Below are positions 32,127 to 55,587 of a stretch of DNA of 55,587 nucleotides, piece by piece. Made by a program: the position numbers and the translations under genes. The notes beneath the pieces were generated by a model. The model searched no databases and was not told the DNA's origin. It saw only the letters and a list, made by a program, of their open reading frames with translations. Within the stretch, counting starts at the first letter, position 1. Each line of letters starts with the position of its first letter. The DNA comes from Verrucomicrobiota bacterium (GTDB lineage Bacteria; Verrucomicrobiota; Verrucomicrobiia; Limisphaerales; UBA11358): positions 1 to 55,587 of the forward strand of contig JAJPJM010000113.1 in NCBI GenBank assembly GCA_021324235.1, read 5' to 3'.

Positions 32127-32215
32127 ATTTATGATTTTTGATTTACGATTTACGATTTACGATTGGTTCAGGCTGCCGACGCTGCCTGAAATCGGAAATC
32201 ATCAATCATAAATTA
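32127..32215. repeat. 7-bp-period inverted-arm element without a gene
   Basis: The left arm steps by 7 bp from 32127 (ATTTATG, ATTTTTG, then ATTTACG three times). The right arm from 32188 steps by 7 bp in reverse (GAAATCG, GAAATCA, TCAATCA). TTTATGATT (32128-32136) pairs exactly with AATCATAAA (32204-32212), TGATTT and CGATTT pair further in, and CAGGC/GCCTG (32169-32173 and 32184-32188) continue the stem. It fills the whole gap between nifJ and the DHOD-like gene and would be a large hairpin in their shared transcript. Confidence 0.8.
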
Positions 32216-44438: not shown

Positions 44439-44828
44439 ATGAGCAAAATCCAAAAATTCGAGGACGTTCTCGCGTGGCAAAAAGCACGGGAACTGACCAG
44501 GGAAATTTATGCTCATGCCGAAGCCGGTCTATTTGCAAAAGATTTTGGACTGCGGGACCAAATTCAGCGCGCCTCGGTTTCGATCATGGGGAATGTTGCT
44601 GAAGGATTTGACCGGGGTGGGGATAAAGAGTTCATCCAGTTTCTTTCGATTTCAAAAGGCTCTTGTGGGGAAGTAAAATCGCACCTTTACGTTGCATTGG
44701 ATCAACAATACGTCAATTCCGCGCAGTTCAACCAGCTTTACAAGTCGGCTGATGAAGTGGGCCGGCTGCTCGCCGGATTCATGACTTACCTTGAACAATC
44801 CGATTTGCGCGGCAGGAAATTCAAATGA
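44439..44828 (+). CDS. Four-helix-bundle protein of the 23S rRNA intervening-sequence family
   Basis: I chose the ATG at 44439, with GAAAGG 6 bases upstream; the upstream in-frame TTG is less likely. The protein has 129 residues. The family signature is clear: FEDVLAWQKARELTREIYAHA, FGLRDQIQRASVSIMGNVAEGFDR, EFIQFLSISKGSCGEVKSHLYVALDQQYV. This S23/23S_rRNA_IVP family was first known from inserts in 23S rRNA genes of Leptospira and others. Crystal structures of relatives show pentameric bundles; the role is unknown. The gene lies between aroE and the prepilin peptidase gene, whose ATG overlaps its stop as ATGA. Inverted 7-bp arrays flank it. A paralogue is at 53569-53976. Confidence 0.9.
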   Translation: MSKIQKFEDVLAWQKARELTREIYAHAEAGLFAKDFGLRDQIQRASVSIMGNVAEGFDRGGDKEFIQFLSISKGSCGEVKSHLYVALDQQYVNSAQFNQLYKSADEVGRLLAGFMTYLEQSDLRGRKFK

Positions 44829-53568: not shown

Positions 53569-53976
53569 TCAGGAGATGGAAGTTGGCAGATTGGAGTTGG
53601 GATTTGTGGTTCGCGCGCGGGTGGAGCGAATGAGGCCGGAAACCAGACGGCCGGTTTGAGCAACCAGTTCCAGCAATGTTTTGTGTTCCGGTTCCGAAAT
53701 GTAATCCGCATCCAGCATGACGCAGGATAACGAGCGCACCTCGCCGCAGGAAGCGCGGGCAACGTTGTAAAATTGCAACTTTTCGCCGGGGTGAACGCGC
53801 TCGAATCCTTCAGCAATATTGGTCATGGCCGAAACGGATGCCCGTTGAGCTTGTTCGCGCAACCCGAAATCAAGGGCCGCTGGTTTGCGTCGGAAGCAGG
53901 CATAAACTGCGCGGACAAGTTCTCTTGCCGTTTGCCACGCTGCCAGTTGCTCGAAGTTGTTTATCCTGTCTGCCAT
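53569..53976 (-). CDS. Four-helix-bundle protein inserted between cysD and cysN
   Basis: The protein has 135 residues and shares the family pattern of its paralogue at 44439-44828: FEQLAAWQTARELVRAVYACF, FGLREQAQRASVSAMTNIAEGFER, EKLQFYNVARASCGEVRSLSCVMLDADYI. The start codon sits inside a 7-bp repeat array that also supplies its ribosome site (AGGAG, 7 bases before ATG). The last dozen residues (TNPNSNLPTSIS) are read from the other repeat array. The two arrays are inverted to each other. No sulfur function is suggested by the protein, so its place in the operon looks like an insertion. Confidence 0.9.
   Translation of the reverse strand: MADRINNFEQLAAWQTARELVRAVYACFRRKPAALDFGLREQAQRASVSAMTNIAEGFERVHPGEKLQFYNVARASCGEVRSLSCVMLDADYISEPEHKTLLELVAQTGRLVSGLIRSTRARTTNPNSNLPTSIS
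53572..53606. repeat. 7-bp-period array, left arm of the cysD/cysN cassette
   Basis: Five words start at 53572 and step by 7: GGAGATG first, GCAGATT third, GGATTTG last. GGAGATGG (53572-53579) is the exact complement of CCATCTCC (53973-53980) in the right arm. It covers the 3' end of the four-helix-bundle gene. Confidence 0.8.
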
Positions 53977-53997
53977 CTCCGATCTCCTATCTGCTAG
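53970..53997. repeat. 7-bp-period array, right arm of the cysD/cysN cassette
   Basis: Four words start at 53970, 53977, 53984 and 53991 (CTGCCAT first, CTGCTAG last). Read on the minus strand they are of the type GCAGATN/GGAGATN, as in the left arm. The array reaches exactly from the cysD stop codon to the four-helix-bundle start codon. Confidence 0.8.
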
Positions 53998-54896
53998 AAG
54001 TATCCCGCTTTCTTGCGGTCTTCCATCGCCGCTTCGCTCGCCTTGTCATCGGCGCGGGAACCGCGCTCGGTCACCCGCGCGGCCGCGATTTCGGCGATGA
54101 TGTCGTCCACGGAATCCGCCGGCGACTCGACCATGCCGGTGCTGATGATGTCGCCGATGGTGCGGACGCGGACGACGAGGTCCTTGATTTCGTCCTTCGG
54201 TTTCAACGGCAACAGGTCGCTGATTGGCAGCCACTGGCCATTGCGCCGGACGCACTTTCGTTGGTGGCTGAAATAAATCGTCGGGACCTGAAGTTTCTCG
54301 CGCTTGACGTATTCCCACACATCCATTTCCGTCCAGTTCGAGAGCGGAAAGACACGCATGTGTTCGCCCGGATTGACGCGGGCGTTGTAGAGGTTCCAGA
54401 TTTCCGGCCGCTGGTTTTTGGGGTCCCACTGGCCAAAACTGTCGCGGAAGCTGAAGAACCGCTCCTTGGCGCGGGCCTTTTCCTCGTCGCGCCGCGCGCC
54501 ACCGATCAGACAATCAAACTGAAATTCCTCGACCGCGGCGAGCAAGGTCGGAATTTGCAGCTGATTCCGGCTGATTTCACCGGACCGCGGCACGGCAATG
54601 CCTTTGGTGATGGCGTCTTCGACCTTGCGGACGATGAGCCGGGCGCCCAGTTCCGTGGCGCGCTGGTCGCGGAACTCGTTCAGTTCGGGAAAGTGATGTC
54701 CCGTGTCAATGTTGAGCAACGGCATGGGGATGTCCGACGGACGGAACGCCTTTTCAGCGAGGCGCAGCAGGCAGATGGAATCCTTGCCGCCGGAAAACAG
54801 CAGGGCCGGGCGCTCAAATTCCGCCGCAACTTCACGCATGATGTGAATCGCCTCGGTCTCGAGATACTGCAAATGGTCCAGGTGGTAGCTGTTCAT
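53994..54896 (-). CDS. cysD: Sulfate adenylyltransferase subunit 2
   Basis: I chose the ATG at 54896 (MNSYHLDHLQYLETEAIHIMREVA), the conserved start of the family. The nine codons further upstream are repeat sequence. The protein has 300 residues. The ATP-pyrophosphatase PP-loop is LLFSGGKDSICLLRLA, followed by NIDTGHHFPE, CLIGGARRDEEKARAKERFFSFRD and the usual end DRKKAGYF. It forms APS from sulfate and ATP together with CysN. The 9-bp repeat arm begins 3 bases before the start codon and leaves no obvious ribosome site, so its translation initiation may be altered. Confidence 0.95.
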   Translation of the reverse strand: MNSYHLDHLQYLETEAIHIMREVAAEFERPALLFSGGKDSICLLRLAEKAFRPSDIPMPLLNIDTGHHFPELNEFRDQRATELGARLIVRKVEDAITKGIAVPRSGEISRNQLQIPTLLAAVEEFQFDCLIGGARRDEEKARAKERFFSFRDSFGQWDPKNQRPEIWNLYNARVNPGEHMRVFPLSNWTEMDVWEYVKREKLQVPTIYFSHQRKCVRRNGQWLPISDLLPLKPKDEIKDLVVRVRTIGDIISTGMVESPADSVDDIIAEIAAARVTERGSRADDKASEAAMEDRKKAGYF

Positions 54897-54899
54897 TTT

Positions 54900-54930
54900 G
54901 ACACGGATTTCACGAATTGACACAGATTCA
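54900..54930. repeat. 9-bp-type array, left arm of the GxxExxY cassette
   Basis: GACACGGATT (54900-54909), running into TTTCACGAATT (54908-54918) and then GACACAGATT, repeats ATTNCACGR-type words in 9-10 bp steps. Both blocks are exact complements of AATCCGTGTC and AATTCGTGAAA in the right arm at 55308-55337. Confidence 0.8.
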
Positions 54931-55302
54931 TAAAATGACGCGCTTCCATTCTAGCGAATCCGCACCAAAATTAACAAGCAATCCCAAACGAAGCTTTGCG
55001 GCGGCCAGATAATTCAAGACCTGCTTGACGTGCGCATCGACGAGTTGCTCGACCGCCTTTGCCTCGAACAAAATCTTGTCCCATACGACAAAATCAGCGC
55101 GGTAGGAATGTGGAAGAATCACACCTTTGTATTTTATTTCGTATTTGTTCTCGCGGGCGAAAGGAATTTTCTCCCGGCTCAATTCCACGACCAACGCGTC
55201 CTTATAGATAACTTCGTCGTGCCCCTTACCCAGTTCACGGTGAATCTCCATGCAAAACCCAATCAGACGGTGAGTTTCTTCGCGGTAGAGCAGTTCACTC
55301 AT
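54928..55302 (-). CDS. GxxExxY-family protein (PD-(D/E)XK nuclease-like)
   Basis: The protein has 124 residues. The name-giving motif is GKGHDEVIYKDAL near residue 27. The core looks like a PD-(D/E)XK nuclease fold: YRADFVVWDKILFEAKAVEQL gives the Asp and the ExK pair, and HVKQVLNYLAAAKLRLGLLVNFG is the following helix/strand. The family (PDDEXK_3 group) is spread across Verrucomicrobia, Planctomycetes, Leptospira and others, with no settled function. The gene lies between cysH and cysD, and inverted 9-bp repeat arms flank it just outside the start and at the stop. It has no visible Shine-Dalgarno. Nuclease activity is inferred, not shown. Confidence 0.88.
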   Translation of the reverse strand: MSELLYREETHRLIGFCMEIHRELGKGHDEVIYKDALVVELSREKIPFARENKYEIKYKGVILPHSYRADFVVWDKILFEAKAVEQLVDAHVKQVLNYLAAAKLRLGLLVNFGADSLEWKRVIL

Positions 55303-55307
55303 GGATA

Positions 55308-55337
55308 AATTCGTGAAAATCCGTGTAATCCGTGTCC
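55308..55337. repeat. 9-bp-type array, right arm of the GxxExxY cassette
   Basis: AATTCGTGAAA (55308-55318), AATCCGTGT and AATCCGTGTC (55327-55336) are the inverted counterpart of the array at 54900-54930. It begins 5 bases outside the GxxExxY start codon and ends 11 bases before the cysH stop codon. Confidence 0.8.
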
Positions 55338-55348
55338 AAGTCTTTGGG

Positions 55349-55587
55349 TTAAATCCCAGACCCCAAAGCCTGCGAACCCCAGGTCGCGTGCAAACCGCAT
55401 TCGCGTTTGTCGTCGGCCTTCGCCGGATCGAAATAATCCCATTCGTTCGGCAGTTGCTGCTGTTTCAGGTAATTTTCCATGTCCGCGTCGCTCCAATAAA
55501 AGACCGGGTTGACCTTCAAAGCGCCAAAATTTTTGTCCTCGGAAACAATGTCCAGTCCGGCACGATTTGAGTTTTGCACTTGGCGCA
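55349..55587 (-). CDS. cysH: Phosphoadenylyl-sulfate/adenylyl-sulfate reductase, C-terminal part
   Basis: The frame is open to the right edge; only the C-terminal 79 or so residues are in the window. VNPVFYWSDADMENYLKQQQLP is the late helix/strand of PAPS-reductase enzymes, and DKRECGLHATW carries the catalytic Cys of the ECGLH motif. The preceding RQVQNSNRA corresponds to the substrate-binding GLRxxQSxxR region. The Cys-Cys pairs of iron-sulfur APS reductases would lie partly outside the window; only the ECGLH Cys is seen here. It is the first seen gene of a cysH-cysD-cysN operon. Confidence 0.85.
   Translation of the reverse strand, partial: RQVQNSNRAGLDIVSEDKNFGALKVNPVFYWSDADMENYLKQQQLPNEWDYFDPAKADDKRECGLHATWGSQALGSGI

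Follow-up and report, generated by a model that had tools for sequence, protein, structure and literature searches.

The stretch of DNA analysed here, 55,587 nucleotides in length and hereafter called the window, carries towards its end, in minus-strand order, cysH, a GxxExxY gene, cysD, a four-helix (S23/IVP) gene and cysN. The features that matter for what follows are these:

55349..55585, minus strand: 3' part of cysH, phosphoadenylyl-sulfate reductase, the upstream host gene, truncated at the window end (NF002537, PF01507)
55305..55339, minus strand: gene-proximal (5') arm, units CACGGATT, CACGGATT and CACGAATT, spacing 9 + 10 (inverted pair and unit fit)
54928..55302, minus strand: GxxExxY protein gene (PD-(D/E)XK_3 nuclease family), 124 aa (TIGR04256, PF13366)
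54897..54931, plus strand: gene-distal (3') arm, units CACGGATT at 54902, CACGAATT at 54911 and CACAGATT at 54921, spacing 9 + 10 (inverted pair and unit fit)
53994..54896, minus strand: cysD, sulfate adenylyltransferase subunit 2, the downstream host gene (TIGR02039/NF003587)
53569..53976, minus strand: four-helix-bundle (S23/IVP) gene, belonging to a sister cassette in the cysD-cysN gap (PF05635 with 90 bits, TIGR02436)
53571-53595 and 53964-53988: period-7 arms of this cysD-cysN S23 cassette (L007)

That a GxxExxY gene lies between cysH and cysD, as a first-pass annotation made from the letters had claimed, is confirmed by profile searches: the gene matches TIGR04256 with 135.2 bits (cut-off 35; E 1.3e-39) and PF13366, PDDEXK_3, with 124.8 bits (cut-off 22; E 2.8e-36), and its product has both GHDEVIY, which corresponds to the GxxExxY motif, and the D..ExK residues. 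To our knowledge, this is a large family with no assigned function, and it receives passing mention in the open literature. Neither the window nor the scanned loci had an Rfam match, a search of a defence-system library gave none either, and phage records and E. coli genomes likewise had no match. Among the PHROGs, the GxxExxY protein drew a weak RNA-binding match (E 0.002), on which we do not rely, and the S23 protein an Avd-like one. No solved structure related by sequence to the GxxExxY protein was found, and a structure model from 23 close homologues was of low confidence (pLDDT 53). Elsewhere in the window, another four-helix (S23) gene at 44460-44774 has period-7 arms of the GTCCACC type, the upstream one of which apparently encodes the C-terminal end of an aroE-like gene product.

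The two arms around the GxxExxY gene are oppositely oriented, with three units of CACGRATT type in each. Both complementary pairs reported in the first-pass annotation are exact, namely GACACGGATT (54900-54909) with AATCCGTGTC (55327-55336) and TTTCACGAATT (54908-54918) with AATTCGTGAAA (55308-55318); the two matches join units in different registers. Of the inverted 9-bp-type repeat described there, the inverted arms stand, and the single 9-bp repeat gives way to three-unit arrays spaced by 9 and then 10 nt. Treated as a single repeat, the arms measure 35 nt with 77% complementarity, and no inverted pair spaced within 700 nt is longer anywhere in the window. The near base-for-base enclosure of the gene is likewise borne out: the inner arm ends abut it, with the start codon at 55300-55302 and the stop codon (54928-54930) inside the arm edge, and 3 nt lie between the arm and the cysD ATG. 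When both 100-nt flanks were dinucleotide-shuffled 5000 times, the observed complementarity score was reached in two shuffles; on this ground and that of the array survey against shuffled flanks given below, a chance origin of the arms was set aside, as was a transcription terminator, the arms being 373 nt apart.

Arms of this kind accompany the family as a whole. Four GxxExxY and 10 S23 genes occur in the genome of the window, and their unit sequences vary from copy to copy; in most of these copies the upstream flank best fits its own downstream flank (diagonal 13-27; off-diagonal mean 11). For a broader survey, we assembled 124 GxxExxY loci from same-order relatives and a genome collection covering other Verrucomicrobiota. 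Gene and arrays co-occur in many genomes: as had been expected of other GxxExxY genes, 117 of the 124 loci (94%) have a three-unit array on one or both sides and 100 have one on each side, as against a single one-sided match (1/124) with shuffled flanks. Own-arm complementarity has a median of 25, compared to 12 for arms swapped in from other loci, and lies above the cross-family 95th percentile in 92% of loci. Control genes have a median of 11, and nearly all high-scoring controls proved to be mislabelled GxxExxY or S23 genes, or cysD copies between cassettes. The earlier suggestion that two unrelated protein families have a common layout with different periods also holds: GxxExxY arms have a period of 8-10, with 9+10, 8+8, 9+9 and 8+9 as the main spacings, versus 7 in 51 of the 52 S23/IVP (four-helix) arms with a clear period. 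The repeat period thus goes with the protein family. In 23 of the 100 two-sided loci the direct orientation gives the best array match, and in some of these one flank carries a complete hairpin; pairing of the two sides into one stem is therefore not universal. By way of individual cases, the GxxExxY genes of L119, L137 and L236 lie between matching unit arrays that point the same way instead of being inverted, and those of L132 and L067 have on either flank a full hairpin, not a single arm.

The operon junctions in which these cassettes sit have turned over among related genomes. An empty cysH-cysD site had been proposed as a check, and the junction is indeed bare in the relatives L024, L030, L040 and L043. 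It holds a GxxExxY cassette in the window, in L037 and in the collection loci L074-L077, L079, L080, L094, L098, L100, L103 and L110; armless versions of this arrangement, named in the first-pass annotation as evidence that would speak against its reading, were not encountered, arms being present in all of the latter set. In L025, L033, L035 and L017 the same gap is occupied by an S23 cassette, and in others by gene-less hairpins built of CCACAGAT units (L027, L028, L042), CGCAGAT units (L031, L044), 7-nt units (L032, L039) or CCACGAAT units (L020, L038). Two near relatives, G022 (L017) and G023 (L016), retain in this gap the lone first two units of the GACACGGATT arm, upstream of a different, S23-type cassette with TTAAAT-unit arms. 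This remnant suggests that the GxxExxY arm was probably present in the ancestor of these two genomes and the window genome, the rest having been lost in the two descendants, and its position beside the TTAAAT-arm cassette implies that cassettes replace or bury one another at one site. The cimA-valS junction presents a comparable picture: it is empty in L212 (2-nt gap) and L218 (no gap), has GxxExxY cassettes in five genomes and elsewhere gene-less hairpins in which six or more unit types are represented; the hairpin in the window's own genome is of the CCACAGAT type. The window-type subfamily occurs with the same arms at cysH-cysD, cysD-cysN and cimA-valS, and other subfamilies occupy gaps of the rmlD-rmlB type, nuoK-nuoL, trpS-methyltransferase and RuBisCO-like/kinase, with the neighbours on the cassette strand. 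The placement is tight, arm onset lying at a median of 0 nt from the upstream stop codon (quartiles -7.5 to +3) and arm end at a median of 7 nt from the next start codon. Automatic calls of neighbour direction suffer from noise, since long antisense frames can pass for genes; they have 60 of 103 loci co-directional on both sides, and we therefore rely on loci in which both neighbours were identified. Inverted terminal sequences together with empty sites in relatives, by which a transposon is recognised, are both found here. No nearly identical filled and empty pair was found among the genomes compared, and the flanks of the cimA-valS gap, read by eye, gave no consistent target-site duplication.

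Gene-less hairpins also occur in dispersed form. The pattern CCACAGAT(N3)CACAGAT(N4)CACAGAT, with up to three mismatches, is found 14 times in the 3.1-Mb own genome, as against 0 in the reversed control, and several of these 14 dispersed CCACAGAT arrays are gene-less hairpins of ~80-130 nt. The window itself contains two gene-less hairpins of other types. One, at 32127-32213, has period 7, units of TTTATGATTTTTGATTTACGATTT and arms 88% complementary around a 37-nt loop; the other, at 2511-2586, is built of 9-nt GACAGGATGAACATGATTCACAGGAT units, which are of the type found in the ACAGGAT GxxExxY clade.

Unit and protein are co-inherited. On a tree of 106 GxxExxY proteins, 96 of which had their unit scored, there are 41 changes of the unit 7-mer, versus 76.5 with shuffled labels (shuffle minimum 70), and 21 changes of spacing, versus 49.9. 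Individual clades have units of their own, e.g., CACGGAT/CGCGAAT, CGCAGAT, CACAGAG, CGCAAAG, ACAGGAT and AACAAAG, within a shared form C-R-C-R-R-A-[T/G/A], and in the window's subfamily the units of both arms shift in step among CACGGATT, CACGAATT and CGCGAATT. Such joint inheritance, with both arms shifting together, is as expected of a protein that reads its own unit. The PD-(D/E)XK catalytic residues are conserved in 117 homologues (E 1.00, D 1.00, E 0.95, K 0.99, and Q 0.92), and the nuclease is therefore under selection. As a separate case, L216, in the cimA-valS gap of G023, has a divergent GxxExxY-like gene with CACGGAT units at 10+10 spacing, whose ExK motif is apparently altered (VDRKV), possibly that of a decaying nuclease.

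Taken together, these features lead us to propose that the GxxExxY cassette is probably a one-gene mobile element of REPIN/RAYT-like kind that lacks an HUH transposase and in which the encoded nuclease recognises the arrays at the element's ends. The parts of this proposal differ in strength. On the comparative evidence above, the gene and its arrays very probably form a mobile unit; the protein rather likely recognises its own unit; and it is possible, somewhat short of probable, that the nuclease makes the cuts needed for mobility. Briefly, the element would comprise an array of three direct repeats, the GxxExxY gene and the same array inverted, set in the gap that separates the stop codon of an operon gene from the start codon of its downstream neighbour, and read in the same direction. 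The protein would bind its unit at three sites per end, and would bring the ends together or bind them as a DNA hairpin or cruciform. The PD-(D/E)XK active site might then cut, with the cassette being copied or moved into intercistronic gaps, and gene-less hairpins might be copied or moved in trans by the same protein. The whole would work like a RAYT and its REPINs with a different enzyme. As the S23 cassettes have the same layout with no known nuclease domain, elements of this layout cannot in general depend on their own protein for catalysis; binding may account for part of the mechanism and host enzymes for the remainder.

One alternative, which we regard as unlikely, is that an unrelated enzyme (e.g., Y1/RAYT or an unseen one) moves non-autonomous elements whose ends are the arrays, with GxxExxY and S23 as passengers or accessory binders. 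Such a reading would suit the frequent occurrence of gene-less hairpins with arrays of these kinds, the sharing of the layout by two unrelated proteins and the four Y1_Tnp matches in the own genome. However, none of the Y1_Tnp genes checked in that genome has unit arrays beside it, two having ordinary palindromic repeats instead, and Y1/RAYT mobilisation was set aside for this reason. Further, a unit that tracks the GxxExxY lineage and a period that tracks the protein family would be unlikely for passengers, and the conserved nuclease active site speaks against the same role.

We also consider it improbable that the arms act in RNA, where a stem in the operon transcript would enclose the gene and be cut out or processed, e.g., by RNase III, in the manner of the S23-carrying intervening sequences of 23S rRNA. 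There is precedent in the Coxiella rRNA intervening sequence, which has a 28-bp terminal stem around its S23 gene and is excised in vitro by RNase III (PMC4990558). Arm pairing is predicted in the cassette transcript too, and cassettes are co-oriented with the operon where checked. The predicted pairing, however, arises because the arms are repeats, and the advantage of the fold over shuffled sequence is no more than moderate (z -1.75). An RNA stem under sense-strand selection should favour G-U over A-C, yet the transition mismatches have no G-U excess, with 68 G-U versus 90 A-C in GxxExxY arms and 14 versus 24 in S23 arms. The direct-orientation arrays (23/100 loci, among them L119 and L137) are unable to form the stem at all, and RNA pairing leaves unexplained why the unit follows the protein tree. 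Because of the lack of G-U excess and the direct-orientation arrays, we infer that recognition is probably of DNA. As for the arrays being operators through which GxxExxY regulates only its own gene or operon at an immobile locus, the three direct units flanking the gene do resemble multi-site operators and protein-unit co-inheritance is compatible with binding, but empty sites, varied elements and gene-less hairpins in one gap, and the recurrence of one subfamily across several unrelated operons point to insertion, and an array 3' of the stop codon is unexpected for an operator, which makes this very improbable.

The mobile cassette proposed here has partial counterparts among known systems. 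RAYT genes are single genes always flanked by inverted REPs, with gene-less REP pairs dispersed in the genome (PMC2817692, PMC3116915). The likeness extends to one gene between inverted repeat copies, dispersed gene-less inverted doublets between genes and a repeat type tied to the gene lineage. By its sequence, the GxxExxY cassette is nonetheless outside RAYT/REPIN: the gene has no Y1/HUH domain (a Pfam scan gives PDDEXK_3 alone), and the ends, rather than bearing a GT(A/G)G-headed palindrome, are arrays of three 7-8-nt units. GxxExxY-type elements also differ in having many unit types per genome and a strong intercistronic placement. With the 23S rRNA intervening sequences, the cassette has in common a small ORF within ~28 nt complementary ends, and their S23 family is that of the window's sister cassette; it differs in its operon gap (cysH-cysD), its protein family and its periodic-array arms, and the operon-gap arms of GxxExxY and S23 bear no sign of RNA-level selection. 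The cyanobacterial STRRs, 7-bp repeats forming intergenic hairpins with no assigned function (PMC2670836), resemble the gene-less period-7 hairpins of this genome set and the period of S23 cassettes, in contrast to GxxExxY arrays with their period of 8-10 and the 9+10 spacing of the window cassette. In Thiomargarita, a PD-(D/E)XK_2 (YhgA-like) protein was proposed as the parent enzyme of a MITE (PMC4853749); there too a PD-(D/E)XK protein is the suggested parent of gene-less inverted-repeat elements, but it is of another family, and the elements combine long direct repeats with an inverted repeat of 19 bp, as against the three-unit arrays here. A study of the TAACTGA heptamer suggested a repeat-binding protein as a possible mobile element (PMC4679880). 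Within the open literature, subscription papers being outside the scope, we found no report linking GxxExxY to repeats, or STRR or TAACTGA-type repeats to S23 or GxxExxY genes.

More tentatively, we advance the possibility that GxxExxY and S23 genes together represent a new class of minimal mobile elements of operon gaps in many phyla, with lineage-specific unit arrays at a period set by the protein family (8-10 or 7 nt). Widespread gene-less hairpins, among them the 7-bp STRRs of cyanobacteria, would descend from these elements, and the rRNA intervening sequences would be related to them. The comparison with relatives places the GxxExxY cassette in a widespread and for the most part undescribed group of small elements in bacterial operon gaps, and the data connect the protein of the rRNA intervening sequences with a wider mobile-element life style. 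The GxxExxY family gains a testable context in the form of a candidate cognate DNA unit per clade, ends, empty sites and gene-less derivatives, and the short intergenic hairpins common in bacteria (the CCACAGAT, CGCAAAG and 7-bp types) a possible origin. Lying between operon genes, such elements may alter translational coupling and gene dosage.

The arms extend beyond Verrucomicrobiota to Bacteroidota, Gemmatimonadota, Pseudomonadota and, weakly, Spirochaetota. We inspected eight GxxExxY genes from plasmid or second-replicon records: clear arms are present in Bacteroides, Bernardetia and Gemmatirosa and partial ones in Treponema, and the Persicobacter and Fusobacteria records have none. In Prevotella, unit-like arrays lie on either side in direct orientation, as read by eye. 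Arms are also present in Sphingomonas, where the GxxExxY gene lies between fabD and fabG; in this locus (L235, from a Sphingomonas parapaucimobilis replicon) the annotated GxxExxY CDS runs through the downstream arm, implying that its C-terminus is probably mis-annotated or repeat-encoded.
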